In this document: positions 16,765 to 35,027 of the stretch, piece by piece
Numbering within the stretch: position 1 is the first letter of the stretch
How the letters are laid out: the number at the start of each line of letters is the position of its first letter
The notes under the pieces: model-generated
Database searches by the model: none
Seen by the model: only the letters and a program-made list of their open reading frames with translations
What the model was told of the DNA's origin: nothing
Translations under genes and position numbers: made by a program
Assembly (NCBI GenBank): GCA_944359055.1
Contig: CALVSO010000006.1
Coordinates: 1 to 64,000 of the forward strand
DNA length: 64,000 bases
Direction: 5' to 3'
Source: an uncultured Bacilli bacterium
GTDB taxonomy: Bacteria; Bacillota_I; Bacilli_A; RF39; UBA660

Positions 16765-18414
16765 ATGAAAAAGATTTTATGGTTAATATTTTTATGTTTG
16801 ATTATTAATAAAGTAGATGCTAAGGTATATTATTCTGAATATTCAAAATTTAGTCCGTTTCAAGAAGAAGAAGTAACTTCATCTGATACTATTGATGTAA
16901 TTAAAGAAGAAAGATATTTATGGTATAAAAATGTTGAAACTATAGGAGATTATAAGTTATACAATGATACTGATAATTTTAGTGATGATTGTTATTTAAC
17001 TGAATTTACTGATTGGGATAATAAAAAAATAGATAATGTTGGTTATATCTATGAAGAAAGAAATACTTACAACTATACAATGGCAAAAGGAGTTCGTTAT
17101 ATTCATTTATATAATCTACAAGGTAGTTATGGTTCTTTTAGAATCCCAGAATTAGATATTAAATATAAGGATAAATCAATAAATTATACTTATACATGTG
17201 AAGGTTGTTTGGAAGGATTTGATGATTATATCCATAATGGAATATATGAAGAAAATAAATCTTATATTGCTAATGGTGGATCTTTAATAATTGATCTAGG
17301 AAAAGAATATCCAATTCATTTAATTGATGTTGTATTTTATATTTTTGATTTAGGAAATAGTGATAAATTATATACTATAGGCTATTCTACTGATAAAAAC
17401 AATTTATTATATTCTAAACAATATAATTTACAATTTGCTGATGAATATTGGAAGAATGCAGTTAAAAGAGTACATAATACTGATGAAATAAGTACTAGCG
17501 TTTGGCAATATAATGAAATTTATTCAGGATTAAGAAATAATGATTTTGTAATTAATAAGGAAAGTATCAAACAATATAGATATCAAGAAAAATGGTGTAA
17601 AGTTTATGAAATATCTAAAGAATATTCTGATTACTCTAAAGACCCAATTGGTGATTATAATAATAAATTAGAAGATAGTTTAAAATATTTTTATAGTTAT
17701 CGAACCAGGGATAAATTAGATTTAGATATAAAAGAAATAACAGAAATAAATTTTGATTTAAATAATTTTATTATATCTAGTAGCGATGAAGTTAAAATAA
17801 ATAGTAATATTAATTGGAATAAAAATGGTATTTATGATATTTCGTTTCAAGTAAATGGCTTAATAGTAAATGAAAAAGTAAAATTAAATATAGAAGCTAA
17901 TACTATTGAAGAATTAAAAGAACTAATAGATAAACTAAAAAAAGATTATGAAAATAAAATCAAAGAATTAGAAGAACAATTAAATAATTGTAAGTTAGAT
18001 AAAGAATGCTTAAATAAAAAAATAATTGAATTAAATAATTTAGTTAAGCAATATGAAGAAGAGATATCTAATTTAAATAATATAATTTTAAATTATCAAA
18101 ATAAAATTAATAGTTTAGAAAATTTAAATAATATATATTTAGATAAAATAAAAGAATTAGAAGATGATATTAAAAATTTAAATAGTGGTATTGGAAATAT
18201 AACAAAAGAAAAAGAAGAACAATTAAATAATTTATCTTCTGAACTAAATAATTATAAAGAAGTTAATAATGATTTAAAGAATGAACTAGCAAATACTAAA
18301 ATGCCTAAATTTATGCTTAAAATAGGATCATTAGATAATAAAGTTATTATAATTATTTTTTTACTTCTTATTTATATAGCATATTTAATCGGAAAAAAGT
18401 CGAATAAAAAATAG
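16765..18414 (+). CDS. Surface protein: signal peptide, beta-rich region, long coiled coil, C-terminal membrane anchor
   Basis: This 549-aa protein is of unknown family. A cleavable signal peptide (about residues 1-19, ending VDA) precedes an outer beta-rich region with many Tyr/Trp, including a sugar-binding-like stretch (YIANGGSLIIDLGKEYPIHL) that resembles discoidin/F5_8-type domains. Residues about 385-515 form a long heptad-rich coiled coil. One span (IIIIFLLLIYIAYLIG) and a short basic tail end the protein. The strong SD AGGAGGTGA fixes the start. It lies directly upstream of the spoIIAA-sigF locus and has a SigH-like promoter, so expression at entry to sporulation is plausible but unproven. 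Confidence 0.7.
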   Translation: MKKILWLIFLCLIINKVDAKVYYSEYSKFSPFQEEEVTSSDTIDVIKEERYLWYKNVETIGDYKLYNDTDNFSDDCYLTEFTDWDNKKIDNVGYIYEERNTYNYTMAKGVRYIHLYNLQGSYGSFRIPELDIKYKDKSINYTYTCEGCLEGFDDYIHNGIYEENKSYIANGGSLIIDLGKEYPIHLIDVVFYIFDLGNSDKLYTIGYSTDKNNLLYSKQYNLQFADEYWKNAVKRVHNTDEISTSVWQYNEIYSGLRNNDFVINKESIKQYRYQEKWCKVYEISKEYSDYSKDPIGDYNNKLEDSLKYFYSYRTRDKLDLDIKEITEINFDLNNFIISSSDEVKINSNINWNKNGIYDISFQVNGLIVNEKVKLNIEANTIEELKELIDKLKKDYENKIKELEEQLNNCKLDKECLNKKIIELNNLVKQYEEEISNLNNIILNYQNKINSLENLNNIYLDKIKELEDDIKNLNSGIGNITKEKEEQLNNLSSELNNYKEVNNDLKNELANTKMPKFMLKIGSLDNKVIIIIFLLLIYIAYLIGKKSNKK

Positions 18415-18423
18415 GTCTAGTTT

Positions 18424-18463
18424 TGTCGAATATGTATAATTTTAAAAAAAGTTGTGCTAAATT
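18424..18463 (+). promoter_or_regulatory. Spo0A box / SigH -10 candidate and -10 of the spoIIAA operon
   Basis: TGTCGAA (18424-18430) is a perfect Spo0A box. The overlapping GTCGAAT (18425-18431) also fits the SigH -10, though no good SigH -35 lies 11-12 nt upstream. An extended TGCTAAATT box ends at 18463, 18 nt before the TTG start; relative to it the 0A box sits near -45, where Spo0A activates promoters. TATAAT at 18435-18440 is a further option. Confidence 0.5.
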
Positions 18464-18481
18464 ATTATGGAAGGTGATAGC

Positions 18482-18829
18482 TTGTTAGATATTAATTTAG
18501 AATTTTGTAAAGGAATTTTATTTATTAGATTAAAAGGTGTTCTTAATAAAAATACTGTAGATAAATTAAAAGAAGAAGTTAACAATTTAGTAAAAGAAAA
18601 TGGTATTAGAAATTTAGTTTTTAATATAAGTGAATTAGAATCTATTGATTGTTATGGCATTAATGCTTTACTTAATAATTATGAATTATGTAAAATAAAT
18701 CATGGTCAAAGTTTAGTTTGTGGCATAAATAATAATTTGGTAAAACATAGAATAAACAACAGTAGATTATTAAAATATATGTATGAGACGTCTGATGAAT
18801 TAAGTGCGGTGAATGTAATTAATTTATAG
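18482..18829 (+). CDS. spoIIAA: SpoIIAA-like anti-anti-sigma factor (STAS) lacking the phosphorylation serine
   Basis: A STAS-domain protein of about 115 aa. In Bacillus, SpoIIAA frees SigF from SpoIIAB and is itself inactivated when SpoIIAB phosphorylates Ser58 in a DSSG motif. Here the motif reads I-D-C-Y-G, with Cys at the phospho-site (residue 57 counting from TTG). I prefer the TTG start at 18482 because the SD GGAAGGTGA (18469-18477) lies just in front of it; an ATG at 18467 would put the SD inside the gene. The sigma factor follows 9 nt later with no spoIIAB between. Function as a SigF regulator is therefore uncertain. Confidence 0.85.
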   Translation: MLDINLEFCKGILFIRLKGVLNKNTVDKLKEEVNNLVKENGIRNLVFNISELESIDCYGINALLNNYELCKINHGQSLVCGINNNLVKHRINNSRLLKYMYETSDELSAVNVINL

Positions 18830-18838
18830 GAGGACTAA

Positions 18839-19486
18839 ATGGAAGAGCTAATATTAGAAAATAAGAATTTAATTTATTCAATAACAAGATATTTTGAAAA
18901 GTATTCAAACAAAGAAGATTTGTTTCAAGCAGGTTGTATTGGTATAATTATGGCTTATAAAAATTATAACCCAGATATGAATGTTAAATTTACAACTTAT
19001 GCTTATCCTTATATTTTAGGTGAAATGAAGAAATTAGTTAGAGAGGATAAAACAGTAAAAGTTAGTAGAAGTATTCAATTACTCAATTTAAAAATTGAGA
19101 AAGCTAATATTTTATTAACTCAAAAGTTAATGAGAACTCCAACTATTTTAGAATTATCTGATTTTTTAGAAATACCTATTCATATGATAGAAGAAGCTAT
19201 AAATAGTAGTAAACCTATTTATAGTATTGATGAACCATTAAATGATGAAGGTAAAGAATTAACTTTACAAGATACGATAGGAAAAATGGATAATATTGAT
19301 GATTTATTACTTTTAAAAGAAGAATTATCTAAACTTAATCCTTTTGAGCAAGAATTAATTAGTAAACGTTATATGGATGATTTAACACAACAGCAAACAG
19401 CTTATGAACTTGGAATAAGTCAAGTTCAAGTATCTCGAGGAGAACAAAAAATATTAACCAAATTAAAATCGAAACTAGTTGCTTAA
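18839..19486 (+). CDS. sigF: Sporulation sigma factor, SigF (or SigG) type
   Basis: The 215-aa sigma-70 protein has region 2 (EDLFQAGCIGIIMAYKNYNP, FTTYAYPYILGEMKKLVRED), region 3 and region 4 (LNPFEQELISKRYMDDLTQQQTAYELGISQVQVSRGEQKIL). It is shorter than typical SigF (about 250 aa) at the N-terminus. It starts 9 nt after spoIIAA (SD GGAGGAC). spoIIAA before and spoVAC after favour SigF over SigG. Canonically SpoIIAB holds SigF inactive, but no spoIIAB is present at this locus. A terminator overlaps the stop. Confidence 0.88.
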   Translation: MEELILENKNLIYSITRYFEKYSNKEDLFQAGCIGIIMAYKNYNPDMNVKFTTYAYPYILGEMKKLVREDKTVKVSRSIQLLNLKIEKANILLTQKLMRTPTILELSDFLEIPIHMIEEAINSSKPIYSIDEPLNDEGKELTLQDTIGKMDNIDDLLLLKEELSKLNPFEQELISKRYMDDLTQQQTAYELGISQVQVSRGEQKILTKLKSKLVA

Positions 19487-19544: not shown

Positions 19545-19982
19545 ATGGAAGAAAATAAATACAAAAGATTAGTAGCAAAGCATACACCTAAGGAAAATGT
19601 TTTAAATAATGCATTAATTGCTTTTATAATAGGTGGATTTATGGGATTATTAGGTCAATTTTTAACAGATATTTATTCTTATATTTTTAATATTTCTACT
19701 AGTGATGGAACTATGTTAATGATTGTTACTTTAGTGTTTTTAGGTTGTTTATTTACTTGTTTTGGTTTTTTTGATAAGTTAGTTCATTTTGCTAGATGTG
19801 GATTGATTATACCAATTACTGGTTTTGCACACGCAATGATGAGTGCTTCTTTAGAATATCGTAAAGAAGGATTTGTAACAGGTATAGGAGCAAACATGTT
19901 TAAATTGGCTGGTTCGGTAATTGTATTTGGAGTTGTTAGTGCATATGTATTTGGATTTTTAAGATTAATAATTGGAGGTTAA
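19545..19982 (+). CDS. spoVAC: SpoVAC, dipicolinic acid channel protein
   Basis: The 145-aa inner spore membrane protein has about four spans and the SpoVAC pattern (LVAKHTPKENVLNNALIAFI, then GGFMGLLGQ, FARCGLIIPITGFAHAM). SpoVAC is the mechanosensitive DPA-release component. ATG 19545 is chosen from the strong SD TAGGAGGAA at 19532-19540. It is the first gene of spoVAC-spoVAD-spoVAE and is followed 2 nt later by spoVAD. Confidence 0.95.
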   Translation: MEENKYKRLVAKHTPKENVLNNALIAFIIGGFMGLLGQFLTDIYSYIFNISTSDGTMLMIVTLVFLGCLFTCFGFFDKLVHFARCGLIIPITGFAHAMMSASLEYRKEGFVTGIGANMFKLAGSVIVFGVVSAYVFGFLRLIIGG

Positions 19983-19984
19983 AT

Positions 19985-20974
19985 ATGACTTTTAAATATA
20001 ATAATGTTTATATAAACGATACTGCTACAATAACTGGACCTTATGAAGCTAATGGCCCATTATCCAAATATTTTGATAAAAGTTATAATGATTTATATTT
20101 TAATACAAAATCATGGGAACTAGCAGAAATAAAATTAATAGAAGAGTCAATTGATATTTTGTTAAATAAAATAGGTAAAACTAAATTTGATGTTGATGTA
20201 TTAGTATCAGGTGATTTATTAAATCAGATTGTTGCTACTAATTATGCAGCTTCTAGTTTAGATATTCCTTTAATTGGAATATATGGTGCTTGTTCGACTA
20301 GTGTTTTAGGATTAATTATTGCTTCTAATATGATTGAAGCTAAACAAATTAAAAATGCAATAACATCAACTTCTTCACATAATAATGCAGCTGAGAAACA
20401 ATTTAGATATCCCGTTGAATATGGTGGACCAAAAAGAAAAACAACTACATTTACCTCTACTGGTGGGGCTTCAGCTTATCTATCGAGTAATAAAAAAGGA
20501 ATTAGAGTTGAAAGTGCTACCCTAGGAACAGTAGTTGATTTAGGGGTAACAGATGTGTATCATATGGGAGCAGTAATGGCACCAGCAGCAGCTAAAGTAA
20601 TATATGATCATTTAAGAGAAACAAAAAGAGAAATAGGTTATTATGATTTGATTTTAACTGGTGATTTAGGTAGATATGGTAAAGATATTCTAAAAGATTA
20701 TATGTTGACTGAATATAATATAGAATTAAAAAATTACGATGATTGTGGTTCAATGATTTATGATATAGAAAAACAACCAGTTTATGCAGGAGCGAGTGGA
20801 CCTGCTTGTGCTCCTTTAGTTACATATGGATATGTATTTGATAAAATGTATAAAAAAGAAATAAAAAGAGTTTTATTAGTTGCTACTGGAGCTTTAATGA
20901 ATACAACGATGGTCAATAATAAAAGTACGATACCAAGTATTGCTCATGCAATAAGTATGGAGGTGGTAGAATGA
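19985..20974 (+). CDS. spoVAD: SpoVAD, thiolase-fold DPA-binding protein
   Basis: The 329-aa protein has a thiolase-like fold: YINDTATITGPYEANGPLS near the start, IGIYGACSTSVLGLI at the thiolase Cys region, and CGSMIYD. SpoVAD binds dipicolinic acid in Bacillus and is essential for loading it into spores. SD GGAGG is 2-9 nt upstream of ATG. It overlaps spoVAE by 4 nt. Confidence 0.97.
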   Translation: MTFKYNNVYINDTATITGPYEANGPLSKYFDKSYNDLYFNTKSWELAEIKLIEESIDILLNKIGKTKFDVDVLVSGDLLNQIVATNYAASSLDIPLIGIYGACSTSVLGLIIASNMIEAKQIKNAITSTSSHNNAAEKQFRYPVEYGGPKRKTTTFTSTGGASAYLSSNKKGIRVESATLGTVVDLGVTDVYHMGAVMAPAAAKVIYDHLRETKREIGYYDLILTGDLGRYGKDILKDYMLTEYNIELKNYDDCGSMIYDIEKQPVYAGASGPACAPLVTYGYVFDKMYKKEIKRVLLVATGALMNTTMVNNKSTIPSIAHAISMEVVE

Positions 20975-21321
20975 TTTATTTAAATTCATTTTTATTCTGT
21001 GGAATTGTTTGTTTAATAGGACAATTAATATTAGACAATACCAAATTAACGCCAGGACATATAACTACTATATTTGTTGTATTAGGATGCTTTTTAGATG
21101 TATTTAATATATATGATAAAATTATATTATGGGCTGGAGCTGGTGCTTGTGTACCTATTACTAGTTTTGGTCATTTATTAATTCATGGAGCAATGGTATC
21201 TAGTGTAGATTTAGGTTATATGGGATTAATGAGTGGTATGTTTAATTTAACTGCATCTGGTATTACAGCTGCAATTGTATTTTCATTTATATTTTCTTTA
21301 ATATTTAAACCAAAAGATTAA
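20971..21321 (+). CDS. spoVAE: SpoVAE (SpoVAEB), DPA channel membrane protein
   Basis: The 116-aa protein has three to four spans and the SpoVAE pattern (GLIxQ-like CLIGQLILDNTKLTPGHI, WAGAGACVPITSFGHLLIHG). It is the third member of the minimal spoVAC-D-E set found in Clostridia and small Bacilli; spoVAA, AB and AF are absent. The start overlaps the spoVAD stop (SD GGAGGTGG). Confidence 0.95.
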   Translation: MIYLNSFLFCGIVCLIGQLILDNTKLTPGHITTIFVVLGCFLDVFNIYDKIILWAGAGACVPITSFGHLLIHGAMVSSVDLGYMGLMSGMFNLTASGITAAIVFSFIFSLIFKPKD

Positions 21322-24417: not shown

Positions 24418-24432
24418 ACTTTGAAGTTTTAT
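24401..24432. terminator. Strong bidirectional terminator
   Basis: A 12-bp perfect stem AAAACTTCAAAG/CTTTGAAGTTTT with a 6-nt loop, shared by convergent genes. Confidence 0.92.
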
Positions 24433-25694
24433 TCATATTTAAATGTAAATGATACATCAACTTTAATTGATTTATCTTTACTAATTTCTTCATATGATTT
24501 ACCTAATTTATTTTCTAATTCTTCTAAAGAAATATAATTATCTAATACAGGAAGTGAGTAAATATCATATTTTATCAAATATCTTGAATATATATCAGTT
24601 TGTTCTTCACGATAACTTTTATTAGAATCATCAACATAACTTACATCTTTAAATACTGTCCAATTGGTGTATGATAGAGTATCAGTATCTTTATAATTAT
24701 AACCAATTGGTTTAGTAGAACTATAACCACTATAAATTCTTTTAGTATTTCCATTATACCATTTCCATACATCATCATAATATGTATACATAGTAGCAGA
24801 ACTTTCAAATTCTTTTTCATATTCACTACCAGGTGAATTAGGCGTATATTCACCATTGTTCCAATAAACTTTAGTTTCACCATCTAAATAATACCAACGA
24901 TATCCTGTAGTTGATCTAATATGACGATAATCAAAAGTTTCAGGATAATCTAGACTCCATGGTGTTTCTTCTGTTTTTGATTTTGTGGCTTCGTCTTTAT
25001 AAGTATATCCACTAGGTTTTGTTGAACTATAATCACTATATTTTATATTGTTTTTATACCATTTCCATCTTTTATCACGATAGCTATAATAAGTTTTTGT
25101 TTCTCTTACATATTCTGTTATAACTGCATTTTTAGGTATAACAGGTAATTTTTTACTATCTAGTGGTAATAAAACACCATTAGTTTCTTCAGTACTTATA
25201 TCTTCACTTGGATACCAATTAGACCATTTTGAATTATAAGAATCTACTTCAAAATAATTAAATAAAGTTGTTACTTCGACATTTTTAGAACTATCGAATT
25301 CTCCTTCTTTAGTAAAATCTTTAGTTGTACAATATGAAGCATCATCTAATTTAACTGTTTTGACATATTCATCATTGTATTTGGTATAGGTAATAGAACC
25401 AGTTAAAGCATAATCTTTAAATACAATTGGTTCGTTTAAATCTGATAATTTAATAGTTATACTATCACCATTTAAAATTGGTAATAAATTATTATCACTT
25501 AAATAGCTATCAGATTTTGATAAAATATCATTTCTTAAATTATTACATGTTCTAGTTCTAGAACCATTAATTATACTAGTAATAATAAAGTATAATACTA
25601 ATATAACAAATATTATAATTAAGAAACCTTTAATATTTTTTTTAGCTAAATTACCAATTTTGATTTTGGAAAGTAATTCCTTTACTTTTTCCAT
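24429..25694 (-). CDS. Membrane-anchored protein with Trp/Tyr-rich repeats
   Basis: This 421-aa protein has one N-terminal span (about residues 21-41, FLIIIFVILVLYFIITSI) and an outer region. The outer part carries at least two copies of a module with YxYxDxxWKWYxxN, then YSSTKPxGYxYKD and a conserved Trp (about residues 200-245 and 295-345). Many Trp/Tyr suggest binding to a glycan or the cell wall, but no family is recognised. SD GGTGGAG precedes ATG, and a minus-strand TATAAT is at 25712-25717. The end overlaps the bidirectional terminator. Confidence 0.65.
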   Translation of the reverse strand: MEKVKELLSKIKIGNLAKKNIKGFLIIIFVILVLYFIITSIINGSRTRTCNNLRNDILSKSDSYLSDNNLLPILNGDSITIKLSDLNEPIVFKDYALTGSITYTKYNDEYVKTVKLDDASYCTTKDFTKEGEFDSSKNVEVTTLFNYFEVDSYNSKWSNWYPSEDISTEETNGVLLPLDSKKLPVIPKNAVITEYVRETKTYYSYRDKRWKWYKNNIKYSDYSSTKPSGYTYKDEATKSKTEETPWSLDYPETFDYRHIRSTTGYRWYYLDGETKVYWNNGEYTPNSPGSEYEKEFESSATMYTYYDDVWKWYNGNTKRIYSGYSSTKPIGYNYKDTDTLSYTNWTVFKDVSYVDDSNKSYREEQTDIYSRYLIKYDIYSLPVLDNYISLEELENKLGKSYEEISKDKSIKVDVSFTFKYE

Positions 25695-32520: not shown

Positions 32521-35027
32521 ATACAAAATATAATCATTTAGAAGTAGAAAATAAATATGAAGATTGGAAAAATAAAGGATATTTTAGTAGTGGTGATTTA
32601 TCAAAAAAACCATATTGTATAGTTATTCCACCACCTAATGTAACAGGTAAATTGCATTTAGGTCATGCTTGGAATACTACTTTACAAGATATTATAATTA
32701 GATATAAAAGAATGCAAGGTTATGATGCTTTATGGTTACCTGGTATGGATCATGCTGGTATTGCTACTCAAGCAAAAGTAGATAATAAATTAAAAGAAAT
32801 GGGCATTAATCCAAGAAGTTTAGATAGAGATGAATGGCTTAAATATGCTTGGGAATGGAAAGAAGAATATGCAGATAATATTCATAAACAATGGGCTAAA
32901 TTAGGTTTGTCATTGGATTATAATAAAGAAAGATTTACTTTGGATGAAGGATTATCTCATGCTGTAAAAAAAGTATTTATTGATTTATATAATGAAGGTT
33001 TAATTTATAGAGGAGAAAGAATTATAAATTGGGATCCTAAAGCAATGACGGCATTATCTAATGAGGAAGTTATTTATAAGGAAGTAGAAGGTGCATTTTA
33101 TCATATAAAATATTTTATTGAAAATAGTGATGAATATTTAGAAGTAGCAACAACAAGACCAGAAACTTTATTTGGCGATACAGCTGTTGCAGTTAATCCT
33201 AATGATGAAAGATATAAAAAATATATTGGTAAAAATGTAGTACTTCCTATTGTTAATAAATTAATTCCTATCGTTGGTGATGAACATGCTGATCCAGAAT
33301 TCGGAACTGGTGTAGTTAAAATAACTCCTGCTCATGATCCTAATGATTTTGAAGTTGGTAATAGACATAATTTAGAAAGAATTGTTGTTATGAATAAAGA
33401 TGCAACAATGAATGAAAATGCTATAGGATATACAGGTTTAGATAGATTTGAATGTCGAAATAAATTAGTAGAAGATTTAAAAGAAAAAGATTTATTAATA
33501 AAAATAGAAAAGATGAAACATTCAGTAGGTCATTCTGAAAGAACTGATGTTATGGTAGAACCTTATTTATCAAAACAATGGTTTGTTAAGATGCGTCCTT
33601 TAGCAGATAGAGTGTTAGATAATCAAAAAAACAAAGATACTAAAGTTAATTTTGTACCTGCTAGATTTGAAAAAATTATGAATCACTGGATGGAAATAAC
33701 TTATGATTGGTGTATTTCAAGACAATTATGGTGGGGACATCAAATACCAGCTTATTATAAAGGTGATGAAGTATATGTAGGTTATGAAGCACCTAGTGAT
33801 GAATGGGTACAAGATTCAGATGTGTTAGATACTTGGTTTTCATCAGCTTTGTGGCCTTTTAGTACATTAGGTTGGCCAGATACAGATATATCAAGATATT
33901 ATCCAAATAATTGTTTAGTAACAGGTTATGATATTATTCCATTCTGGGTTAATAGAATGACTTTCCAAGGATTACATTTTACTGATAAAAGGCCATTTAA
34001 AGATTGCTTGATTCATGGCTTAATTAGAGATAAACAAGGTAGAAAAATGAGTAAATCTTTAGGTAATGGTGTCGATCCTATGGATGTTATTGCAGAATAT
34101 GGATGTGATTCATTAAGATTTTATTTATCAACATCTACTGCTAATGGTACTGATTTAAGATATGATACAGAAAAAGTTAAATCAACTTGGAATTTTATTA
34201 ATAAATTATGGAATGCATCTCGATTTGTTTTAATGAATATTGAAGATTTTAATTACAATTTAGATAATTTATCAGTAAGTGATAAATGGATATTAAATAA
34301 AATGAATAATTTAATTAATAAAGTGACAAAATATATGGACAAATATGAATTTAATACTGTTGGATCATTATTATATAGTTTCGTTTGGGATGATTTTTGT
34401 GATTGGTATATTGAATTATCAAAAGCTTCTATGAATGATACAACAAAAACAGTATTATTAATAGTTTTAACTAATATATTAAAATTATTACATCCATTTA
34501 TGCCATTTGTAACAGAAGAAATATATTTGAAATTACCAATTCATGATGAATCAATTATGATAAGTGATTATCCAAAATATGATAAAAAATTTAAATTTGA
34601 TAGTAATTTAGATTTGTTAATTGAATTAATTAAAAAAATAAGAAAAGTTAAATTAGATAATAATTTAGGTAAAGATTATTTAATTGTAAGTAATAATGAA
34701 TTTATATTAGAAAATAAAAATTTATTAAGTAAAATGCTTAAAAATGAAAATATTTTAACTAATTATAATGGAGATTATAATAAAATAGATATTAATTTTG
34801 ATAATGATATTGTTTCTATTTATTATGATGGTAGTTTAACTGAAGAAGAAAAACAATTATTAATTAAAGAAAAAGATAGATTAATTAACTCTATTGAAAG
34901 AAGAAAAAAATTATTATCTAATCAAGGATATATTAATAAAGCACCTAAACAAATAGTTGAAAATGAAAAAAATAGTTTACTTAAAGATGAAAAAGATTTA
35001 GAATTGATAATTGAAAAACTAAAATAA
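32514..35027 (+). CDS. valS: Valyl-tRNA synthetase
   Basis: The 837-aa class I synthetase has HIGH in [20 protein letters not shown] in [11 protein letters not shown], the CP1 editing domain ([14 protein letters not shown]) and a C-terminal coiled-coil arm. The start overlaps the HD gene (SD AGGAGGA). The last 82 codons (34782-35027) are repeated at 36503-36748 with four silent differences, so the current 3' end may have been brought in by the inserted segment downstream. Confidence 0.98.
34782..35027 (+). repeat. Left copy of the 246-bp valS 3'-end direct repeat
   Basis: Identical to 36503-36748 except at four positions: Thr ACT/ACC, Lys AAA/AAG, Leu CTA/TTA and stop TAA/TAG. This copy is fused in frame to the full-length valS. 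Confidence 0.97.

Follow-up and report, generated by a model that had tools for sequence, protein, structure and literature searches.

The locus lies within the window, by which we mean the whole 64,000-nucleotide stretch of DNA that was analysed. It carries a gene for a SpoIIAA-like STAS-domain protein followed by one for a SigF-type sigma factor, with a Spo0A box upstream and spoVA genes downstream. Sigma-F is the first spore-specific gene regulator and is normally turned on by a kinase/phosphatase switch, the textbook case of one daughter cell gaining its own gene programme. The features are as follows.

18424..18430, + strand: Spo0A box TGTCGAA, an exact match, upstream of the STAS-sigF operon
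18435..18463, + strand: putative promoter, with TATAAT at the -35 position (18435-18440), a 17-nt spacer and an extended -10, TGC-TAAATT (18455-18463), at fixed spacing from the Spo0A box
18482..18829 (annotated ATG at 18467), + strand: STAS-domain protein, SpoIIAA-like (TIGR02886, E 2.2e-14; Pfam STAS above cut-off; Foldseek match to 1tid)
18647..18658, + strand: D-C-Y-G, aligned with the DSSG phospho-site of SpoIIAA; the Cys codon (18650-18652) takes the place of the phospho-serine
18839..19486, + strand: SigF-type sporulation sigma factor (TIGR02980, E 1e-54; TIGR02885, E 5e-52; Sigma70 regions 2, 3 and 4)
19548..19982, + strand: spoVAC, conserved downstream neighbour (TIGR02838, 167.3 bits, above cut-off)
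19985..20974, + strand: spoVAD, conserved downstream neighbour (NF006160, 417 bits, above cut-off; Pfam SpoVAD, E 4.5e-123)
20971..21321, + strand: spoVAE, conserved downstream neighbour (TIGR02839, 136.3 bits, above cut-off)

The source genome is a 92% complete MAG of 1.34 Mb in 48 contigs, in which profile searches found Spo0A, SpoIIGA, SpoIIR and SigG. The nearest named relatives are uncultured Bacilli/Tenericutes MAGs and Candidatus Faecisoma merdavium (STAS 86% identical), with UBA660 among the more distant family members; the family genomes sampled are mostly MAGs or unnamed records. Going by these names and by gene content, the genome probably belongs to GTDB order RF39.

The sigma factor scored 185.7 bits against TIGR02980 (SigB/F/G) and 177 bits against TIGR02885 (SigF), both below the curated cut-offs (321 bits for the SigF model), while its Sigma70 regions 2, 3 and 4 all exceeded the Pfam cut-offs. 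A separate, near-canonical SigG (365 bits) is encoded elsewhere in the source genome (contig C21, 3918-4691). Because this SigG outscores the window's SigF on the SigF model itself (273 versus 177 bits), SigF is the faster-diverging member of the pair. Its N-terminus, described as short in a preliminary description of the locus, is ordinary: SigF proteins of the family span 202-234 aa, and some from SpoIIAB-bearing relatives are equally short. From gene content, we infer that the window's sigma-F is used in sporulation.

Gene order and the search for SpoIIAB and SpoIIE

The STAS gene ends at 18829 and the sigma gene starts at 18839 on the same (+) strand, leaving a gap of 9 bp. Across RF39 family loci the order spoIIAA-sigF-spoVA is retained without spoIIAB, and the gap between STAS and sigF ranges from -28 to +69 nt, as against 339-506 nt in Bacilli that carry spoIIAB. 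The preliminary description had argued that spoIIAB could not fit between the two genes, and these distances bear it out. Given the synteny with spoVA, we identify the locus as a spoIIA locus rather than an RsbV-SigB locus. In one family genome (G001, contig C28) STAS and sigF are separated by metK, and so the pair does not form a single transcription unit everywhere. Another genome (G122) carries, besides its STAS-sigF locus, a further STAS paralogue on contig C12 that is not next to sigF.

Directly upstream, at 16765-18414 on the + strand, is a gene for an exported protein that has a coiled coil and is anchored in the membrane at its C-terminus, and a homologue occupies the same position in many family loci. 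We considered this protein as a substitute for SpoIIE and ruled it out, since it evolves fast, begins with what resembles a signal peptide and has a short tail in the cytoplasm. The - strand encodes a distant homologue at 24429-25694.

In the source genome, the SpoIIAB model gave only six weak GHKL matches. All six are within proteins carrying HisKA domains and are therefore histidine kinases, and we rejected them as SpoIIAB substitutes. SpoIIAB was found above the model cut-off in none of 145 family genomes, and at E<=1e-12 in none of 117 order genomes, all of them at least 90% complete. In a class-level control it was detected in 64 of 296 genomes at E<=1e-12 and in 57 of 296 above the cut-off. 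With a second profile, built from Bacilli SpoIIABs, the order yielded only long frames of kinase length (at least 259 aa; best E 2.8e-11). Short GHKL frames in two genomes (G117 and G028) were set aside as bare HATPase_c domains of 140-141 aa, similar to the C-terminus of a histidine kinase and with no STAS or sigF adjacent.

The SpoIIE model (TIGR02865) matched 76 of 296 class genomes, with none from the window's order among the matches listed, and had no match in the source genome. The single PP2C of that genome (C2:16248) is of Stp1/PrpC type and was rejected as SpoIIE; no other phosphatase was found that has the membrane and regulatory domains of SpoIIE. The genome-wide search for both proteins that the preliminary description had proposed thus recovered neither from the genome, the sampled family or the order, and its alternative of a SpoIIAB encoded elsewhere is not borne out by the genome, the 145 family genomes or the 117 order genomes. 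The main text of a 2024 Microb Genom survey (PMC10868615) reports that RF39 retains many other spo genes while spoIIAB and spoIIE are reduced in presence or absent. The present searches confirm this loss, which was already known from that survey.

Divergence of the STAS protein

The STAS gene is likelier to start at TTG 18482 than at the annotated ATG 18467, because a Shine-Dalgarno-like GGAAGGTGAT precedes the TTG and the ATG is only 4 nt past the conserved -10; the TTG start also agrees with the family start MLDI. The fold is closest to that of SpoIIAA. TIGR02886 matched with 53.3 bits (E 2.2e-14), below the curated SpoIIAA equivalog cut-off of 114.75 bits, which no family genome passes. The best phmmer matches in the PDB were the SpoIIAA entries 1tid and 1th8 (E 5e-14), and Foldseek aligned the STAS protein to 1tid with a TM of 0.90 and an rmsd of 2.0.

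In B. subtilis SpoIIAA the phosphorylated residue is Ser58, the first Ser after the Asp (PMC3517971). The 1tid chain is an alanine variant at this residue and reads MDASG. In our alignment the Ser58 column holds Cys in the window's STAS protein, and both the published assignment and the 1tid chain agree with the preliminary reading of the phospho-site as D-C-Y-G, with Cys in place of the phospho-serine. The column is Ser in all 28 STAS proteins from SpoIIAB-bearing Bacilli. Among 69 RF39-family STAS proteins it is Ile in 10, Met in 10, Leu in 10, Glu in 8, Asn in 7, Ser in 6 and Gln in 4, with Lys and others besides, and Cys in one. Cys is a genus-level state: most members of the window's genus keep it, and one sister species has Tyr (D-Y-Y-G). 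The consensus of the window's clade is D-[I/M/L]-K-G, with Lys following the phospho position in 26 of 35 sequences.

Changes extend beyond the phospho-site. Residues that are invariant or nearly so in SpoIIAB-associated proteins have been lost in the window's clade at D27, F59, S62, G66, R71, G100 and I104 (window numbering). Position 71 aligns with R67 of B. subtilis SpoIIAA, a residue that contributes to both the SpoIIAB and the SpoIIE interfaces (PMC11418112); it is Arg in all 28 proteins that occur with SpoIIAB and Asn in 21 of 35 from the window's clade. The clade also has new conserved residues, not conserved in the proteins that occur with SpoIIAB, namely E12, R14, K15, G16, K28, K63, E73 and Y104. 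The proposal that loss of the kinase and loss of its target residue go together is therefore supported, with both the phospho-serine and the docking surface lost where SpoIIAB is missing. Without spoIIAB the Ser is mostly lost; Cys itself occurs in one of 69 sequences and is confined to the window's genus. These coupled changes in phospho-site and docking residues appear to be new; no discussion of what became of SpoIIAA and its phospho-site, of the promoter or of the repeated loss of STAS was found in the main text of PMC10868615.

Promoter conservation and STAS retention across the family

An exact Spo0A box is present upstream of STAS in 59 of 69 RF39 family loci, compared with 0.44 expected from shuffles. 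In the 57 loci that we aligned on the box, the -10 (TAAATT) is at a constant distance, with its T, A and T conserved at 93-95%, and a weaker TATAAA occupies the -35 position. The arrangement of these elements fits a putative Spo0A-activated promoter. With its 17-nt spacer and extended -10, this putative promoter looks like a sigma-A type with the Spo0A box beside the -35, rather than a sigma-H type. Another 0A-like match in the window, at 33453, falls inside valS and was dismissed as chance. The box is also found upstream of spoIIA in 17 of 28 SpoIIAB-bearing relatives; being common to these loci, it is ancestral, and by itself it does not demonstrate that expression is the sole present control.

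Among close relatives, dN/dS is 0.124 for STAS, 0.139 for SigF, 0.10 for SpoVAC and 0.08 for SpoVAD, and 0.455 for the upstream coiled-coil neighbour. STAS is under purifying selection, similar to sigF. When 91 family rows were placed in a SigF tree, the window fell in a clade of 36 rows (SH-aLRT 96), every one of which has STAS. In the other 55 rows, STAS is lost or eroded in 22, comprising 15 with sigF and no STAS and 7 with a STAS that has no recognisable D-x-x-G. On this tree the presence and absence of STAS needs 13 changes, at least 3 of which are forced by well-supported branches; the count of losses is approximate because most inner branches have weak support. Upstream of sigF, the 15 STAS-less loci have ddl- or truB-like genes, others, or no clear ORF instead. 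We infer that STAS has been repurposed in the window's clade and is decaying in others. Since it is decaying or gone in sister clades, STAS is not strictly needed for sigF to be retained.

Control of sigma-F and comparison with known switches

We consider it probable that the partner switch has been dismantled in this lineage, with sigma-F placed mainly under Spo0A-driven synthesis and STAS kept as a non-phosphorylated accessory. The RF39 lineage has lost the SpoIIAB anti-sigma kinase and the SpoIIE phosphatase, as the searches show, and the remaining SpoIIAA-like STAS protein has lost its phospho-serine and invariant residues of the docking face, including the R67 equivalent, as seen in the alignment. 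In the proposed mechanism Spo0A~P would activate the STAS-sigF promoter via the conserved 0A box. Sigma-F would be limited mainly by the timing of its synthesis and be active once made. The STAS protein of the window's clade has probably taken on a new role as a binding protein that is not phosphorylated, and compartment specificity, if any, would depend on a different step, such as the retained SpoIIR-SpoIIGA-sigma-E relay. Control of SigF by expression only had been among the alternatives of the preliminary description; the conserved box and the lineages with sigF and no STAS speak for it, but the ancestral origin of the box weakens it. Improper activation of sigma-F is lethal in B. subtilis (PMC11418112), and control by expression alone may therefore not be tight enough.

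The main rival reading, which we regard as unlikely, is that STAS regulates sigma-F directly, binding sigma-F or RNA polymerase as a one-component anti-sigma factor or chaperone and releasing it upon some signal. The tight adjacency of STAS and sigF, whose frames often overlap, would suit such a role, as would the presence of STAS in all 36 rows of the window's clade, its new conserved residues and a dN/dS like that of SigF. Against it are the 15 sampled sigF loci that have no STAS. An AlphaFold2 model of a STAS-SigF read-through fusion (pLDDT 93.5, pTM 0.52), in which both domains fold confidently but their relative placement is not confident, speaks neither for nor against it; sigma factors are themselves flexible multi-domain proteins. 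Rather improbable is the replacement of SpoIIAB by a non-homologous anti-sigma factor or kinase, with STAS still its antagonist through a new, phosphorylation-free interface. The STAS surface in the window's clade has indeed shifted rather than vanished, and is under purifying selection, but the operon offers no candidate, its upstream neighbour is exported and evolves fast (dN/dS 0.455), and the secondary losses of STAS oppose a universal new switch.

The remaining explanations fare worse. If the locus were a relic, with sporulation being lost and STAS-sigF persisting by chance, the small genomes, the several family genomes with a single, RpoD-like sigma match and the erosion of STAS in some lineages would all be expected; we judge this very unlikely in view of dN/dS values of 0.08-0.14 for STAS, SigF, SpoVAC and SpoVAD, the retention of Spo0A, SpoIIGA, SpoIIR and SigG, and the conserved promoter. 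Cysteine-based (redox) control in place of serine phosphorylation, put forward in the preliminary description, could draw on the Cys kept in most of the window's genus. It is hardly credible when a single Cys occurs among 69 family sequences, Ile, Met and Leu dominate the same clade, Glu, Asn, Gln or Lys stand there in other relatives, and a sister species has Tyr. What stands of that interpretation as a whole is the coupled loss of kinase and target serine; the control by cysteine does not. That a SpoIIAB is present but was missed, through an assembly gap or extreme divergence, could draw on the source genome being 92% complete in 48 contigs. We give this a negligible chance, as two profiles failed to find SpoIIAB in 117 order genomes that are at least 90% complete while the positive controls were detected, and at essentially every locus its usual slot ahead of sigF is undisturbed and vacant.

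RF39 bacteria, if spore-forming, must start the spore programme differently from the known switch. No cultured RF39 member or documented RF39 spores were found in the records and open-licence literature searched, and that literature yielded no RF39 spore or expression data. We hold it possible, though doubtful, that these bacteria make endospores by a functional pathway whose sigma-F is controlled with no partner-switching kinase; one large clade would then have given the former SpoIIAA a new regulatory function, independent of phosphorylation and exerted through a new binding face, while other clades discarded the protein. With sigma-F, sigma-G, Spo0A, SpoIIGA, SpoIIR and SpoVA retained but the switch gone, the lineage is a natural test of whether cell-specific control of sigma-F needs that switch. 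RF39 is a large order of uncultured gut bacteria, and the loss is not confined to one genome. Galperin et al. 2012 (PMC3533761) list spoIIAA, spoIIAB and spoIIE for all the spore-forming bacilli and clostridia they analysed, which makes the loss in RF39 notable to specialists. A 2025 classifier (PMC12536801) gives RF39 MAGs a 0% sporulation probability; as every spore-former that it predicts has spoIIAB, the prediction of sporulation from genomes may be biased.

The locus resembles the SpoIIAA-SpoIIAB-sigma-F/SpoIIE switch of Bacillus and Clostridium in having a SpoIIAA-fold STAS protein before sigF, spoVA after it, a Spo0A box upstream and a sigma factor of the SigB/F/G family. It differs in lacking SpoIIAB, SpoIIE, the phosphorylatable Ser, the R67 docking arginine and other SpoIIAA invariants. 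The RsbV-RsbW-SigB switch likewise has a STAS protein and a sigma factor of related families, but neither a standalone kinase of SpoIIAB/RsbW type nor a phosphatase of SpoIIE/RsbU type was found in the source genome. Compared with the RF39 gene set in the main text of PMC10868615, we find the same loss of spoIIAB and spoIIE, and add what became of SpoIIAA and its phospho-site, the promoter and the repeated loss of STAS.
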